Origin: Ignavibacteria bacterium
GTDB taxonomy: Bacteria; Bacteroidota; Ignavibacteria; Tepidaquicellales; Tepidaquicellaceae
Length of the DNA stretch: 64,000 nucleotides
Direction: 5' to 3'
NCBI GenBank assembly: GCA_028714695.1
Contig: JAQTLX010000010.1
Location: 1-64,000, forward strand
Within the stretch, counting starts at the first letter, position 1. Every line of letters starts with the position of its first letter. This document shows, one piece after another, positions 5,998 through 64,000 of the stretch. The notes beneath the pieces were generated by a model, which ran no database searches, was not told the origin of the DNA, and worked only from the letters and a program-made list of their open reading frames with translations. A program made the translations under genes and the position numbers.

Positions 5998-7308
5998 TTA
6001 ATTGTTAAGTAATTTACCGGCTGCTTTCTTCCATGCCAACTGCGCGTTCAGAAGATTTATTGTCGATACTATGTAATTATTCTGTGCTTCTCTTAATGAA
6101 TTATCGGACTGAATTACGTCGGTTATATTTACCAATCCTTCTTTAAACTGAAGTTGAGTCTGATCATAAATCTTTTGAGCAAGGTCCAACTGCTCTTTTC
6201 TGCTTAAGATTGTAGATTCATTAAGAGTTATTTGTTCAATCGAATTTTTCAGTTCCATACTTATATTTTCGTTCATTTGATTTAACTGCGTGTTCAGTTT
6301 TTCATATTCGATATTTTTTTGGTCAATTTTCGATTTCTTTCCCAGGCCGTCGAATAAATTCCAACTCAATTTCAAGCCTACCCATGAGCCCGGCAGACCT
6401 TTCAAAAAGCCCGCGTCTCCGCCCTTGCCGTAATAAGTATTGTTATAAACTCCGTATGCGGAAAGGGACGGGAAATAACCGGCTGTAATATTTTTTCTTT
6501 CAACCAAATTAAGTTCTTTCTGCTTTTCCAGTAATTTCACTTCAATCCTTTCGGGTTCGATATTATAGGACGGCAGTGTTATGGTGTTTGTAGATATTTC
6601 ATTATTTATTTGCAGATTATCGGACTGGGAAATCCCTGAAAGAAATTTTAGCATATTTATAACTTCATTATAAGATACCTTTACAGTTTTCTCCTGAGTT
6701 TCGAGCATAGTTTTGTTCAGTTTCAATTTATCGACATCGGTATGTTTTATCATCTGGTTTTCGTATAACAATTCCGCGGTGGAAATCAGTTTTTCCATAT
6801 TGGTAATATTGCTTCTGATGAAATTGCTCTGAGTATTAATTATCTGAGCGTTATAATAAGCGGCGCTTACATTGTAGGCAACTTCTTCTTTTGATTTGCG
6901 GACCAGCAGCCTGTTCAAATCCTTTCCTGTATTTGCCATTTGAACTCCGGTAATGTATTCCTGGCTGAAAATCAGTTGTCCTACGGAAATTGTTGTACCT
7001 AAATTCCACGGCGTGCTTATTTCAAACGGCTGATATATGTCACCTCCTACAGGCATTAATTGTACGGGGATTTTCGTATAGTATTTATAATCACCGCTGA
7101 CATTAACCTGAGGAAGCATACTGGATTTCACTTCGCTTACGCGTTTATCCGCAATCTCCGTTTCCAGTATGGAAGATTTGACACTCTGATTATTTTGCAA
7201 TGCCTTGTTTATCAAATCTTTCAAAGATATCTCCTGAGCATTCGCGCAAACCGCCATCGACAGGAAGAAAATCAGTGTCAGGTATATCTTTTTAGTTGTG
7301 TTATACAT
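5998..7308 (-). CDS. TolC-family outer-membrane efflux channel
   Basis: This 436-residue protein has a signal peptide (about 1-24, ending ANA-QE). It is followed by two repeated halves of long amphipathic helices with Leu/Asn/Gln-rich heptads and short beta segments, as in OEP/TolC proteins; length is typical. It is the first gene of the efflux operon after tetR. The start chosen is the ATG at 7308. The 146-bp gap to tetR contains one strong and one weak copy of the presumed TetR operator (7421-7438, 7326-7343), so transcription of the pump operon is probably derepressed when the regulator binds a ligand. Confidence 0.93.
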   Translation of the reverse strand: MYNTTKKIYLTLIFFLSMAVCANAQEISLKDLINKALQNNQSVKSSILETEIADKRVSEVKSSMLPQVNVSGDYKYYTKIPVQLMPVGGDIYQPFEISTPWNLGTTISVGQLIFSQEYITGVQMANTGKDLNRLLVRKSKEEVAYNVSAAYYNAQIINTQSNFIRSNITNMEKLISTAELLYENQMIKHTDVDKLKLNKTMLETQEKTVKVSYNEVINMLKFLSGISQSDNLQINNEISTNTITLPSYNIEPERIEVKLLEKQKELNLVERKNITAGYFPSLSAYGVYNNTYYGKGGDAGFLKGLPGSWVGLKLSWNLFDGLGKKSKIDQKNIEYEKLNTQLNQMNENISMELKNSIEQITLNESTILSRKEQLDLAQKIYDQTQLQFKEGLVNITDVIQSDNSLREAQNNYIVSTINLLNAQLAWKKAAGKLLNN

Positions 7309-54712: not shown

Positions 54713-55294
54713 ATGAGAAAAATTTTAAATATTGCATTTTTATTTCTGTTTGTTTTTTCAATCAACTTATTTTCACAGGAAATAAAAGTATCCTCCGTAT
54801 CGGCACGATATTCGGGAGACGGCGCTTGGAAAGACTGGAATATTTCCTACGATAAAGGTTCAGGCTCTTACACTACGATGTATTCGGGTGAAGATGCATG
54901 GAAACAGTGGAGAGTTGCAACTCCTAATTCAGACGGCAGTGTTGAGACTGTATTCAGCGGAGAAGATGCATGGCAGTACTGGAGATTCAGTTTTAGCAAT
55001 TGCAGCGGAACTATACGGACGGTATTCACGGGCGAAGATGCATGGAAACAATGGGAAGTTACTGACGGCAAACATACGCTGAAAATCAGCACAGTTTTCT
55101 CCGGAGACGACGCATGGAAAGACTGGAACATAACTTCAAGCGGCGGAAGTATGAGAATCAATACAAGATTCGGAGGCAACGGCGCTTGGAAAGACTGGAA
55201 TATAACCGATAACCTCCCGGGCGTGAGTGTAGAATTAAAAACTGCCGCGGTATTTGTGTGTATATACTCGGGTGCGGTTAGAATCAGGAGGTAG
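54713..55294 (+). CDS. secreted protein made of exact 24-residue Trp repeats
   Basis: This 193-residue protein has a signal peptide (1-22) and six repeats with conserved core G-x-x-A-W-K/Q-x-W. The first Trp falls at residues 39, 63, 87, 111, 135 and 159, an exact 24-residue period; each core is followed by a variable strand. The ending (about 175-193) is hydrophobic (FVCIYSGAV). I do not recognise the family. An exact period with alternating strands suggests a beta-solenoid or beta-sheet stack, outside the cell or on its surface. It follows the Asp-box protein by 50 bases. Confidence 0.88.
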   Translation: MRKILNIAFLFLFVFSINLFSQEIKVSSVSARYSGDGAWKDWNISYDKGSGSYTTMYSGEDAWKQWRVATPNSDGSVETVFSGEDAWQYWRFSFSNCSGTIRTVFTGEDAWKQWEVTDGKHTLKISTVFSGDDAWKDWNITSSGGSMRINTRFGGNGAWKDWNITDNLPGVSVELKTAAVFVCIYSGAVRIRR

Positions 55295-59513: not shown

Positions 59514-59546
59514 GCAGAGACTCCGCACTGGAGTCTCTGCTTTTTT
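59514..59546 (+). terminator. terminator after the FadL-like gene
   Basis: GCAGAGACTCC and GGAGTCTCTGC (59514-59540) form a perfect 11-bp stem with a 5-nt loop and six T follow. Confidence 0.93.
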
Positions 59547-59895
59547 AGCATACCTTGCTTATTTTCACTTGAATACTGCCGTTAGCAGACAAACCCCACT
59601 ATCCCCAAAATACCCTGATTATTAATACGATTTTCCTATTTATAAAAGTGTCATTTCGTGCAAAAATAATTTTAAAAATAATACTTGACTTAATAATAAA
59701 AATTGATTATGTTAATAATAGATTTTTTTTATTGACTATTGCACGATAAATGGAAAACGAAAATCTTCCAATATTGCACAGATACACTGAATGCCGCCGG
59801 CTGTCAAAGCCGGCGGCAACTCGAACACGTGATTTTCGAAATATTTTTTTGATAATAATAATTTTTTATAATCCAACACAAGGAGTAATTCATTT
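59547..59895. other. 349-bp leader region of the cysteine-rich array
   Basis: No gene is supported. It is A/T-rich and contains two copies of TATTGCAC-x0/1-GATA (59738, 59772). A GC-rich hairpin at 59792-59818 is listed separately, and a clear AAGGAGTAA ribosome-binding site stands 14 bases before the first array gene. The promoter of the array must lie here, but no consensus motif is convincing. Confidence 0.65.
59792..59818 (+). promoter_or_regulatory. GC-rich hairpin in the array leader
   Basis: TGCCGCCGGC and GCCGGCGGCA form a perfect 10-bp stem with a 7-nt loop TGTCAAA. It stands out in DNA that is otherwise very A/T-rich. No T-run follows, so it is not a standard terminator. It is 78 bases before the first array start and could be a 5' leader stability or regulatory structure. 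Confidence 0.6.
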
Positions 59896-60258
59896 ATGAA
59901 AAAAATATCGATTCTATCCGGGCTAATGCTGACAGCATTGATTGCTTTTACGGCATTCACAACCAGCCCGCCTGCATCAAATCCTGCTGAAAAATTGGTA
60001 GTTCACGTTATTGGGTGTGAAACCTGCAGGAACATACAATATTGCATAAACGGAGGTCCGGTTCAGACAGCAACAACCAGTGATTTTGTTATCGAATGCA
60101 ATCCACAGTTACCGTTTATACAGATAATATGTATAAAGTGCTGTCCCGATAACAGATTTGGTACTGCAACATTCGATTGCGGCATTACCAAAGAAGTTAC
60201 TATTAAAGTCTCTCCTGATGCATCCGAATGCTCATGTTTCGGTAATAAGAAAAAGTAG
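59896..60258 (+). CDS. small secreted ten-cysteine protein, array member 1
   Basis: This 120-residue protein has an N-terminal hydrophobic signal (about 5-22) and a mature part with ten Cys: GCETC (41, 44), YC (50), one EC, IC, a KCC pair, DC, EC and SC. It shares the array pattern G-C-x2-C-x5-C, ...E-C-x-P..., I-C-x-x-C, ...C-G/D... and C-x-C near the end. It carries the CC doublet of members 2 and 4 but ends its mature start KLVVHV like 3, 5 and 6, so it looks intermediate. I do not recognise the family. A strong AAGGAGTAA precedes the ATG. Confidence 0.85.
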   Translation: MKKISILSGLMLTALIAFTAFTTSPPASNPAEKLVVHVIGCETCRNIQYCINGGPVQTATTSDFVIECNPQLPFIQIICIKCCPDNRFGTATFDCGITKEVTIKVSPDASECSCFGNKKK

Positions 60259-60305
60259 CAAAAGAAATAACTGTTTTCTTAAAGGAAAAAAAGGAGTAAC
60301 AAATT

Positions 60306-60662
60306 ATGAAAAAAATCTCAATTCTTTCGGCATTGTTATTTGTATCAATAATTATTTTTTCGGCATACGCTTTTAAACAACAATCTCCAAACCCAAACAC
60401 GGGATACTGGATTGATGTTTTAGGTTGTGACGATTGTAAAAATATTGTCTATTGTGTAAATGGCAGTCCGGAATATATTTCCAGAACAAAGCACTTTTAT
60501 GTTGAATGCGATCCTAACAGCCTTCAGCAGAATATTTGCGTAAGGTGTTGCGGCGACCGCTATGGAACAGCAACTATAATGTGCGGTACAACAAATGTAA
60601 AAATAACAGTCTCCCCGGATAATGCACCCTGTTATTGCGGCGACAAAAACAAAACAAAATAA
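60306..60662 (+). CDS. small secreted ten-cysteine protein, array member 2
   Basis: This 118-residue protein has a signal segment ending near AYA-FKQQ and ten Cys in the mature part (GCDDC, YC, EC, IC, RCC, MC, PC, YC). It begins its mature domain with GYWIDVLGC and is the closest relative of member 4 (GFWVDVIGC). It lies 47 bases after member 1, with AAGGAGTAA before the ATG and no terminator between. A short Lys-rich tail follows the last Cys. Confidence 0.85.
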   Translation: MKKISILSALLFVSIIIFSAYAFKQQSPNPNTGYWIDVLGCDDCKNIVYCVNGSPEYISRTKHFYVECDPNSLQQNICVRCCGDRYGTATIMCGTTNVKITVSPDNAPCYCGDKNKTK

Positions 60663-60720
60663 ATTAAAGGGTCTTAAACGATCCTCATTTACTAAACTAA
60701 ATTATAAGGAGTAAAAAATC

Positions 60721-61062
60721 ATGAAAAAATTATCAATCATCTCGGGAATTTTGCTGATTGCATTAACTGTCTTTATGGCATTCACTATATACCAGCCGGC
60801 AGATAAAACAGCCGACCAGTTCAAGGTACATGTGACAGGTTGTGACGATTGTTCCAAACTGCGTTATTGTGTAGGCGGCGGTCCGACAGTTTATCCGGGC
60901 TCATGCGACTTCACTGCTGAATGTAATCCGTTTGGACCTGTCGTACAAACAATATGCGTGAGGTGCGGAGATAAAGCAGGTACGGCGACTATTTATTGCG
61001 GGCAGACAAAAGAAGTTAAAATCGAAGTTTCGATGTTTGGCACTGCATGTGACTGCAAATAA
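60721..61062 (+). CDS. small secreted ten-cysteine protein, array member 3
   Basis: This 113-residue protein shares its first 23 residues exactly with member 5. Ten Cys are present, but the CC doublet of members 1, 2 and 4 is replaced by a single C (VRCGD) and an extra Cys appears in SCDF. It ends CDCK. The AAGGAGTAA site is 10 bases before the ATG. Confidence 0.86.
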   Translation: MKKLSIISGILLIALTVFMAFTIYQPADKTADQFKVHVTGCDDCSKLRYCVGGGPTVYPGSCDFTAECNPFGPVVQTICVRCGDKAGTATIYCGQTKEVKIEVSMFGTACDCK

Positions 61063-61119
61063 AGGAAGTTCTTTTATCAAAAAATTTCGAATAAAGTCTT
61101 AAAAGGAGTAAAAACAATT

Positions 61120-61467
61120 ATGAAAAAGAAATCAATATTTTCGGGTCTCATTCTGACCGCATTAATAGTATTTGCCGCATGCGCTTTTAAGCAGCAGCCT
61201 TCTAATCTGACAGGTTTCTGGGTAGATGTAATCGGTTGTGATGAATGCGATAACATTTCTTATTGTCTGAACAACGGTCCGGCAATTAGCGTTAACTCAA
61301 CTCACTTTTATGTCGAATGCGACCCTGCAAGCGAGCAGCAAAAGATTTGCGTTACATGCTGCGGCGACAAATACGGAACTGTGACGTTAGTTTGCGGAAG
61401 TGTGCCGGGTGTTAAAGTAAAAGTATCCAACGCAAGCAAACCATGTAATTGTTCCAATAAAAAGTGA
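61120..61467 (+). CDS. small secreted ten-cysteine protein, array member 4
   Basis: This 115-residue protein pairs with member 2 (GFWVDVIGC start, HFYVEC, CCGDKYGT). Ten Cys lie in the mature part (GCDEC, YC, EC, IC, TCC, VC, PC, NC). An additional Cys in the signal segment (FAACAF) resembles a weak lipobox, but the homologous position in member 2 is Tyr, so cleavage by signal peptidase I is more likely. The gap to member 3 is 57 bases. Confidence 0.85.
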   Translation: MKKKSIFSGLILTALIVFAACAFKQQPSNLTGFWVDVIGCDECDNISYCLNNGPAISVNSTHFYVECDPASEQQKICVTCCGDKYGTVTLVCGSVPGVKVKVSNASKPCNCSNKK

Positions 61468-61536
61468 ACTGTATAAGATTAATAATCGCTAAAAATTACA
61501 CTAATCAAAATAATAAATTAAGGAGTAAAAACTATT

Positions 61537-61881
61537 ATGAAAAAATTATCAATCATTTCGGGAATTTTGCTGATTGCCTTAACTGTTTTCATGGCATTCA
61601 CTATATATAAACCTATAGATACAACAGCAGACAAGTTCAAGGTTCATGTTATCGGCTGTGATGACTGTTCACAACTGCATTATTGCATCGGCGGACTTTC
61701 GGCTGTTTATCCGGGTTCATGCGACTTTACGGCGGAATGCAATCCTTTTGGCAGTTCAGCCGACCAAATAATATGCGTCAGATGCGGAGATAAATCGGGG
61801 TCTGCTCTAATTCATTGCGGTGTTACAAAAGAAGTAACAATTAATTTTATTGCATCTCCTTCAGACTGCCAATGCAAATGA
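61537..61881 (+). CDS. small secreted ten-cysteine protein, array member 5
   Basis: This 114-residue protein is the closest paralogue of member 3: identical N-terminal signal, then KFKVHVIGCDDCSQLHYC, SCDFTAECNPFG and ICVRCGDK. Ten Cys are present, ending CQCK. The AAGGAGTAA site precedes the ATG. Confidence 0.86.
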   Translation: MKKLSIISGILLIALTVFMAFTIYKPIDTTADKFKVHVIGCDDCSQLHYCIGGLSAVYPGSCDFTAECNPFGSSADQIICVRCGDKSGSALIHCGVTKEVTINFIASPSDCQCK

Positions 61882-61938
61882 CAGACATAAGTTGAAGTTC
61901 ATTTTTTAATTAAAAACATATTAAGGAGTAAATCAAAC

Positions 61939-62283
61939 ATGAAAAAAATCTCAATTATAACCGGAATACTAATTATTGCATTAACTGTATTCACGGGATT
62001 TACCATTAATCAGCAGACAGAAATTACAGCCGACCAGTTTAAGGTTCATGTCGTTGGATGTGATGACTGCTCAAAATTGCATTATTGTATAAACGGCGGT
62101 GCATCTATTTATCCGGGTTCCTGCGATTTCATAGCCGACTGCGATGTGTCCGGGACTGTTTATCAGACTATTTGTGTGATTTGCGATGGTAAATTCGGCT
62201 CCGCTGCAATAATATGCGGTCAAACGAAAGATATTACTATCACTTTAACTGAATCAGGGACAGTATGTAGTTGCAAAAAATAA
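61939..62283 (+). CDS. small secreted ten-cysteine protein, array member 6
   Basis: This 114-residue protein belongs to the member 3/5 subtype but is more diverged: the signal is KISIITGILIIALTVF, the mature part has GCDDCSKLHYC, SCDFIADC, ICVICDGK and IICGQTK, and it ends CSCKK. Ten Cys are kept. It is the last gene of the array; a strong terminator follows 25 bases later. Confidence 0.86.
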   Translation: MKKISIITGILIIALTVFTGFTINQQTEITADQFKVHVVGCDDCSKLHYCINGGASIYPGSCDFIADCDVSGTVYQTICVICDGKFGSAAIICGQTKDITITLTESGTVCSCKK

Positions 62284-62307: not shown

Positions 62308-62342
62308 AAAACCCGTTATCATAGTTATGATAACGGGTTTTT
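62308..62342. terminator. terminator after the cysteine-rich array
   Basis: AAACCCGTTATCAT and ATGATAACGGGTTT form a 14-bp stem with a 4-nt loop, then T-rich sequence on the plus strand and A-rich on the other. It closes the six-gene transcript and may also serve the convergent gene. Confidence 0.9.
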
Positions 62343-62415: not shown

Positions 62416-64000
62416 TTATTTTAACAGGAGCATTCTTTTTGTTTCCAAAAAATTACCGGCCGACAATTTATAAAAATACACTCCGCTTGATAATCCGTCC
62501 GCATTGAAATTGACTTCGTATGTTCCCGGCTGCATTCTTTCATTCACAAGCGCCGCAACTTCCTTTCCCAGAATGTCATAAACCTTAAGAGTTATTATGC
62601 CGTTTTCAGATTTCAATTTTCCGTTTTCAGGAATCGAAAACCTGATTTTAGTGGAAGGATTGAACGGGTTAGGAAAATTCTGGCTCAAAGAAAACGAAGT
62701 CGGGACTTCTGTCGAAATATTCTGCACTCCTATTACAAAATTATTATTATAAAACTGCCAGGCAACAGCGGCAAGTTGTTTCAACTTTGTCACTGAATTC
62801 AGATTGTTCGTTCCTCTCGCAACCAACTGACATATTATTACAGTCTGAGTATCACCGGGACTCACAACAAGATTAGACGCCCCTGTACCCATGATGTATC
62901 TTCTGTCTCCTGGCGGATTAGAGAATGTAGTAATAGTATCTCCACCGATACAATTTTTAATTTGAGCCATATTCGTATTTCCATTGTAACCGAATTCAGT
63001 CCATCCTGTATTTGTTTCAGGTTCTCCGGTATAAACTTTAATGCTTCGCTGTTTTGTAAAAGGATGATGCCAATATGCTCCGTCTTTTTTATATCCTCTT
63101 AAATAATTATATGCTTCTATGGGTAAACTGGGATCAAGTAAGCATGTCAATGATTGATCATTCGTAAAATAAACAAACGAGGTCATATTCAAATTTACTG
63201 GAACAGAACCTTTTATTTTTGCACCTTTAAGAATAATCTTTCCCGCCGCCGGAGGATTCGCGCCGTAACTCGGCGGGTTCCCGTCTCCGTCCATATTATC
63301 GGCATTATACATATAACCTAATTGCAACACAGTATCGCAGCCGATATAATCATCATTTGCATTTCCCAAATCTTCATCACATATGAATGACATAAAAGTC
63401 GAATCCCAGACATTGCTCCCTTTATTAATTATTTCATATTTCATAAACTGCATGTCCGCATATTCCTCTTTTGAATATCCCCATGCAGTAAAATGGGTTT
63501 CGGTGAACAGCGGAAGTGTGCCACCCGAAAATCCTTCGCTTTGGTTGTGCGAAAACTGGAATCCGTCAGTCATACATATAAATACGGTTTGCCGGGCATT
63601 GTGAACACCCGGTGTATCAATTCCCTGGTCATAAATACCATTATTGTTTACATCATAATATGGCGCACCGTAAGGCACCATCCTGTACCAGTTTGCCCAA
63701 TCCGGATTCGAAGGACCGTCTCCTCTCGAGACTTTGTACAATTTGAAATTCGTATTCGAATCAGGAACGCCGTTATTTATAAACCCGGGAGAATATTCAC
63801 CCTTATAAGAACAAGATACTAGACGAATTGCGTTCAACACTTTTGCACCAATTGTTAAACCTGCCGAAAATCCTATAAATCTGTTAGAACCCGCAGGCCA
63901 CATACATCCCGGAGTGTTACTTGTCCTTATATCCTGATTGAAAGTACCTGTGTTCTGTATCCAGGTGGACATTCGATTCGGTTCAAGCAAAATCTGTTGT
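62416..64000 (-). CDS. T9SS-secreted protein, 5' end outside the window
   Basis: The frame stays open to the right edge (residues before the first Met read QQIL), so the gene is partial: at least 528 residues. The body has many Gly/Asn/Trp/Tyr-rich beta segments and recurring Asp/Asn-Gly turns, with no recognised enzyme motif. The final 85 residues are a T9SS type A sorting domain (SQNFPNPFNP ... GVYFYKL ... RMLLLK). The signal peptide must lie beyond the window. Cargo function is unknown. Confidence 0.85.
   Translation of the reverse strand, partial: QQILLEPNRMSTWIQNTGTFNQDIRTSNTPGCMWPAGSNRFIGFSAGLTIGAKVLNAIRLVSCSYKGEYSPGFINNGVPDSNTNFKLYKVSRGDGPSNPDWANWYRMVPYGAPYYDVNNNGIYDQGIDTPGVHNARQTVFICMTDGFQFSHNQSEGFSGGTLPLFTETHFTAWGYSKEEYADMQFMKYEIINKGSNVWDSTFMSFICDEDLGNANDDYIGCDTVLQLGYMYNADNMDGDGNPPSYGANPPAAGKIILKGAKIKGSVPVNLNMTSFVYFTNDQSLTCLLDPSLPIEAYNYLRGYKKDGAYWHHPFTKQRSIKVYTGEPETNTGWTEFGYNGNTNMAQIKNCIGGDTITTFSNPPGDRRYIMGTGASNLVVSPGDTQTVIICQLVARGTNNLNSVTKLKQLAAVAWQFYNNNFVIGVQNISTEVPTSFSLSQNFPNPFNPSTKIRFSIPENGKLKSENGIITLKVYDILGKEVAALVNERMQPGTYEVNFNADGLSSGVYFYKLSAGNFLETKRMLLLK

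Follow-up and report, generated by a model that had tools for sequence, protein, structure and literature searches.

The window analysed here is a 64,000-nucleotide stretch (64 kb) of a contig from an Ignavibacteria bacterium. Positions 59896-62283 hold six adjacent open reading frames, preceded by a terminator-like hairpin and a GC-rich leader hairpin and closed by a second terminator-like hairpin. The features of the block are as follows.

59514-59540, + strand: terminator-like hairpin that belongs to the OmpP1/FadL gene before the array, a 12-bp stem followed by TTTTTTAG
59792-59818, + strand: TGCCGCCGGC-TGTCAAA-GCCGGCGGCA, a GC-rich hairpin in the leader, 77 nt ahead of the start codon of gene 1
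59880-59888, + strand: ribosome-binding site of gene 1, AAGGAGTAA
59896-60258, + strand: gene 1, type A, 120 aa, ten cysteines in the mature part
60291-60299, + strand: ribosome-binding site of gene 2, AAGGAGTAA
60306-60662, + strand: gene 2, type A, 118 aa, ten cysteines
60706-60714, + strand: ribosome-binding site of gene 3, AAGGAGTAA
60721-61062, + strand: gene 3, type B, 113 aa, ten cysteines
61103-61111, + strand: ribosome-binding site of gene 4, AAGGAGTAA
61120-61467, + strand: gene 4, type A, 115 aa, ten cysteines in the mature part and one in the signal segment
61520-61528, + strand: ribosome-binding site of gene 5, AAGGAGTAA
61537-61881, + strand: gene 5, type B, 114 aa, ten cysteines
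61923-61931, + strand: ribosome-binding site of gene 6, AAGGAGTAA
61939-62283, + strand: gene 6, type B, 114 aa, ten cysteines
62308-62341, + strand: symmetric terminator-like hairpin closing the block, listed on the - strand, with a + strand 3' arm that ends in GGGTTTTTAAT

The first-pass annotation had described this block as an array of six tandem small genes for ten-cysteine proteins closed by one terminator, and the starts, spacing (410, 415, 399, 417 and 402 nt from start to start), lengths and cysteine counts all agree with that description. Each protein carries exactly ten cysteines past residue 26, and the cysteine content is 8-10% per protein vs a window average of 1.07%. A hairpin scan of the block found no terminator-like hairpin between the genes, and the one at 62308-62341 may also serve the convergent gene for a cargo protein of the type IX secretion system (T9SS). 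The array lies among genes for an M49 peptidase, OmpP1, the T9SS cargo protein and a PepD-type dipeptidase. Another exported protein of the window, encoded at 54713-55294, consists of about six SGEDAWKxW-like repeats and is conserved in the genomes G001 and G002. In all gene pairs with a computable dS, dN lies well below dS (0.18 vs 1.02 for genes 3 and 5, for example); the six frames are thus selected protein-coding genes, and the array is under purifying selection.

The six genes fall into two subtypes. Type A (genes 1, 2 and 4) has a CC after the IC motif, and type B (genes 3, 5 and 6) has a single cysteine at this point and an extra one in GSCDF, so that the tenth cysteine occupies different positions in the two. 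The mature proteins of type B are acidic (pI 4.7-5.7), those of type A near neutral (pI 6.4-7.6). In a tree of the family genes 2 and 4 pair with supports of 99/97, and genes 3 and 5 with supports of 90/83. This fits growth of the array by duplication of an A-B gene pair and bears out the earlier proposal of tandem expansion with divergence. In both G001 and G002 a type-B-like gene comes first, and after it a CC-type gene that has eight cysteines.

Residues 20-22 of the products of genes 1-6, aligned by eye, read AFT, AYA, AFT, ACA, AFT and GFT. This suggests that a signal peptide is cleaved, probably after an A-x-[T/A]-like motif near residue 22; alternatively, the segment could stay on as an uncleaved anchor. 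The earlier reading as small exported proteins is supported, and the proteins would be secreted. No lipobox pattern is common to the six, and only gene 4 has a cysteine at the end of the hydrophobic segment. The C-terminal sorting domain of T9SS (PF18962 / TIGR04183) is absent from all six proteins and present in the product of the neighbouring gene at 62416. The Phr signal-peptide family (TIGR04429) gave a weak match (E 0.007-0.04) confined to the N-terminal hydrophobic segment; as the match stayed below the cut-off and the mature part is unrelated, a Phr-type signalling peptide was set aside.

AlphaFold2 models of types A and B, built with 11 sequences, open with an N-terminal helix, which corresponds to the export segment; a linker of low confidence follows, and then an all-beta domain with a pLDDT of about 92 (~91-94 for type B, 87-94 for type A). 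The best structural neighbours in VIA-align are 3e8v (Z 8.0), CueP (Z 7.6, for type B) and the N-terminal extension (NTE) of SusC (Z 7.3), followed by DUF4876 (Z 6.9), carboxypeptidase D/N (Z 6.9) and Bacteroides adhesins (Z 6.5-7.2). Both subtypes are therefore predicted to be transthyretin-like beta-sandwiches. Many of these transthyretin-like and related sandwich neighbours come from bacterial envelope proteins. As Z values up to 8 may reflect just a common arrangement of strands, no function was drawn from them. The carboxypeptidase regulatory domains and their relatives (carboxypeptidase D/N C-terminal domain, SusC NTE, 3e8v) match the model over six to seven strands and 69-75 residues with Z 6-8. 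Unlike the array proteins, which are stand-alone, exported, rich in cysteine (ten each) and without a sequence match to them, they form part of an enzyme or a transporter. Type V fimbrillins and adhesins of Bacteroides and Porphyromonas (Mfa2, BT2657, BT0320) share the transthyretin-like sandwich at Z 5.5-7.2. They are two-domain lipoproteins of 220-330 residues, the lengths being also those of the PDB chains, whereas the array proteins have one domain, no common lipobox and no assembly genes.

Searches of Pfam, NCBIfam, PHROG, PADLOC and PDB sequences returned no significant match for the array proteins, in agreement with the earlier statement that no family is recognised. Nothing came near the curated cut-off of Pfam for 18 members, PADLOC had no significant match in 19 members, a profile search of PDB sequences with the array family found nothing significant, and a literature search on the family found nothing relevant. 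A search in relatives, which the annotation had suggested together with a count of copies, located 19 homologous genes in nine genomes, all of the one bacterial family to which the window belongs. Even sampling of the class (391 genomes) and of the phylum (395 genomes) gave no convincing member outside that family, and viral contigs, phages and plasmids contained no homologue. The family is genuine and new, and its predicted fold looks ordinary. Profile matches in G055, G135, G339 and G371 (E 2e-4 to 2e-3) are partial or fall in Ig-like repeats of very large frames, and those in G026 and G012 and the second one in G011 (E ~0.004) were likewise not counted. The weak match in G371 lies on contig C1 (L053, L059, L061, L062), which has large frames with many cysteine-containing Ig-like repeats.

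Within the genus the copy number is 6 (own genome), 2, 2 and 0, and G004, a further genome of the genus, has no match. In G003 the M49 peptidase, OmpP1 and PepD-type dipeptidase genes of the flanks are kept and the array is absent; a syntenic, empty locus of this kind means that the array was either gained or lost at one constant site. Copies outside the genus lie in unrelated neighbourhoods, and there is therefore no conserved partner gene that hints at a pathway or function.

The presence of each cysteine was tabulated for the 19 members. Six core cysteines (44, 50, 79, 82, 110 and 112) are present nearly everywhere. C41 occurs in 15 members, all of which have either C62 or the CC cysteine but never both (15/15), and the four members that lack C41 lack C62 and the CC cysteine too. 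Five members, from three lineages, lack both C68 and C93, one member lacks both C79 and C110, and the total is even in 17 of 19. The C-terminal CxC is kept in 18 of the 19 members; the first CxxC is not kept, its spacing being changed in G018 and G011 and its first cysteine (C41) missing in four members. This paired gain and loss, seen in few lineages, points to a fold stapled by disulfides and away from a metal cluster. We infer that the array proteins contain disulfides, and that one staple moves its partner between subtypes, from C41 to C62 or from C41 to the CC cysteine. The first-pass annotation had offered five disulfides or metal ligation through the GCxxC and CxC motifs. The disulfide half of this proposal agrees with the cysteine pattern; the metal half does not, since the wider family does not preserve the CxxC and loses cysteines in pairs and not in fours.

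Neither DsbB (PF02600) nor VKOR (PF07884) is found in the 96%-complete host genome, and its 66 T9SS cargo frames show no even-cysteine bias (37 odd counts, 26 even, 3 with none), so no general oxidative-folding route is evident. This genome without DsbB or VKOR exports many cysteine-containing T9SS proteins. An Omp28-like T9SS cargo gene adjoins the pair in both G001 and G002; the G002 copy encodes a CGPC motif, which makes its product a possible candidate oxidant. Elsewhere, G000:C2:398618-398989 (+) (L141) encodes an exported 123-aa protein with 13 cysteines in repeated KDGKC/MKDC units and a metallothionein-like look.

All six start codons are preceded at a distance of 7-9 nt by AAGGAGTAA, which occurs at one further place only in the 64-kb window. 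AAGGAGTAA-N(3-10)-ATG is present at 23 places in the 3.85 Mb of the whole genome, six of them in the array, and 4.8% of 997 frames examined in 1.28 Mb of the genome have a match of at least 6 nt to the anti-Shine-Dalgarno (anti-SD) complement. These counts confirm the earlier remark that the array has strong SD sites in a genome where such sites are mostly weak. Among the other genes with AAGGAGTAA, identified by eye from their translations, are those for acyl carrier protein (acpP), ATP synthase subunit c (atpE), a LeuD-type small subunit, an AmtB transporter and a YbaB protein. The products of acpP and atpE are very abundant proteins, and because such genes share the site, AAGGAGTAA tends to mark highly translated genes. 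Measured against the ribosomal and elongation factor genes of the window, codon adaptation puts five of the six array genes in the window's top quarter (ranks 40-50 of 51) and gene 1 near the median. The array products would thus be abundant, but the second gene of the pairs in G001 and G002 lacks a strong SD site, which counts against this reading. Regulation of SD-led genes through bS21 is known from Flavobacterium (PMC9976891), and bS21 is present in the host genome. We considered such regulation for the array and prefer plain strong initiation, which is simpler, because typical highly translated genes are among the other AAGGAGTAA genes and because Ignavibacteria has a value of 32% in an anti-SD table (PMC10783764).

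The leader hairpin at 59792-59818 is new and had been missed in the earlier annotation. Equivalents lie ~60-100 nt 5' of the first gene at the same site of G001 and G002 and, in another genus and at other loci, 5' of the single copies in G023 and G011; none was found upstream of the homologues in G008, G018, G010 and G022. In the alignment fourteen columns are invariant and one base pair goes from C-G through U-G to U-A. Fold z scores run from -2.6 to -6.7 across members, with -4.5 for the window copy, and no Rfam match was obtained. The copies are located at 59792-59818 in the window, ~12181-12203 in L021, 10027-10047 in L022, ~7336-7363 in L025 and 6988-7013 in L046. A genome-wide repeat was rejected, as the array copy is the only occurrence of the full motif in 1.28 Mb of the host genome. 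A protein operator is less likely given the variable loop length and the C-G, U-G, U-A series, and the loop length favours an RNA element. As a guess, this RNA element might act in mRNA stability or regulation. Two distant homologues in G010 (L047 ~6220-6330 and ~6790-6896) share another upstream element, GAGAG...CTCAGCTTAAAAATC.GGCTTTAGTCTCT, partly assigned by eye, and that genus may have a leader of its own. A perfect palindrome, CCGTCAGGACTTACGTCCTGACGG, stands in two identical copies 725 bases apart at G000:C1:369286-369309 and 370011-370034 (L120).

We propose, at middling confidence, that the block forms an operon and that its products are abundant exported beta-sandwich modules, stapled by disulfides, which have a structural or ligand-binding role in the envelope or the extracellular space. 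In this proposal the operon would be strongly translated, and its small exported proteins would belong to a family that is undescribed and restricted to the lineage. In each of them an export signal and a short linker would precede one transthyretin/carboxypeptidase-regulatory-like beta-sandwich. Up to five disulfides would staple this domain: those of the six-cysteine core, an optional C68-C93 pair and an optional pair of C41 with C62 in type B or with the second cysteine of CC in type A. The array would have expanded through duplication of an A-B gene pair, its dosage increased through copy number together with strong SD sites. Such a module would most likely be abundant, rigid and resistant to proteases, and work in the envelope or outside the cell. 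A role at the surface is possible, and the choice of a structural or a binding role is a guess. A bolder version, which we think improbable, has types A and B co-expressed under control of the leader hairpin and assembled into an abundant heteromeric extracellular coat or filament, with the swappable disulfide setting the subtype and forming without DsbB or VKOR.

Among other readings, an exported metal- or redox-active cysteine protein, whose thiols bind soft metals (copper, zinc, arsenic, iron-sulfur) or serve as a thiol buffer in an envelope that lacks oxidative folding, is unlikely, yet it would accommodate both the missing DsbB and VKOR and the retention of the C-terminal CxC. It also has a structural neighbour in CueP, a periplasmic copper protein of Salmonella with a beta-sandwich and functional cysteines, which aligns with type B over 71 residues (rmsd 2.3). 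CueP, however, is longer, has 8% identity and no evident sequence relation, and drops to Z 5.2 for type A. The cysteines vary in twos with partner swaps, unlike a four-ligand site; neither an invariant CxxC nor a four-cysteine ligand set runs through the family, and no metal-resistance genes were recognised beside the copies in the neighbourhoods read. An exported scaffold that is small and rich in disulfides, and whose tandem copies have diverged and show variable loops in the alignments, would also suit a secreted protease inhibitor or a protein of host or prey interaction, in which the scaffold is kept and the loops are diversified among paralogues. We rate this as a long shot, as Pfam and NCBIfam give no inhibitor family match, no reactive loop is conserved, and the low dN relative to dS holds in every computable pair.

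The toxin or defence role raised in the first-pass annotation, namely a secreted antagonism factor (a bacteriocin-like toxin or contact-dependent effector) or an anti-phage component, is very doubtful. That multi-copy small exported cysteine proteins are often toxins was the lead, and no tool result stands behind it. The array has no immunity gene, every gene in it being a homologue; the PADLOC and PHROG scans were without significant match, viral contigs, phages and plasmids carry no copies, and there is no arms-race signal, so the suggestion is not supported. A precursor of a radical-SAM-modified peptide (RiPP) was prompted by contig C367 of G008, where PapB-like and YydG-like radical SAM genes (L024 3222-4319, 5488-6519) flank the homologue. 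This reading is hardly credible and was rejected: the radical SAM pair is a one-off of G008, absent from the other neighbourhoods read and without a close enzyme homologue in the family's other genomes, our own included, and the mature part is a predicted folded domain of ~80 residues. On C367 a small precursor peptide could fit in the 635 bases that separate the homologue from the PapB-like gene.

The array defines an undescribed family of exported proteins in uncultured Ignavibacteria, and its strong SD sites together with the leader hairpin offer a clean case of selective translation signals where such sites are rare. Its staples appear to evolve as exchangeable pairs in an organism without DsbB or VKOR, so either another disulfide route operates, or the thiols stay reduced and have another task. 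Either answer would be informative, and this tension between the disulfide pattern and the missing DsbB and VKOR is the most interesting point of the locus.
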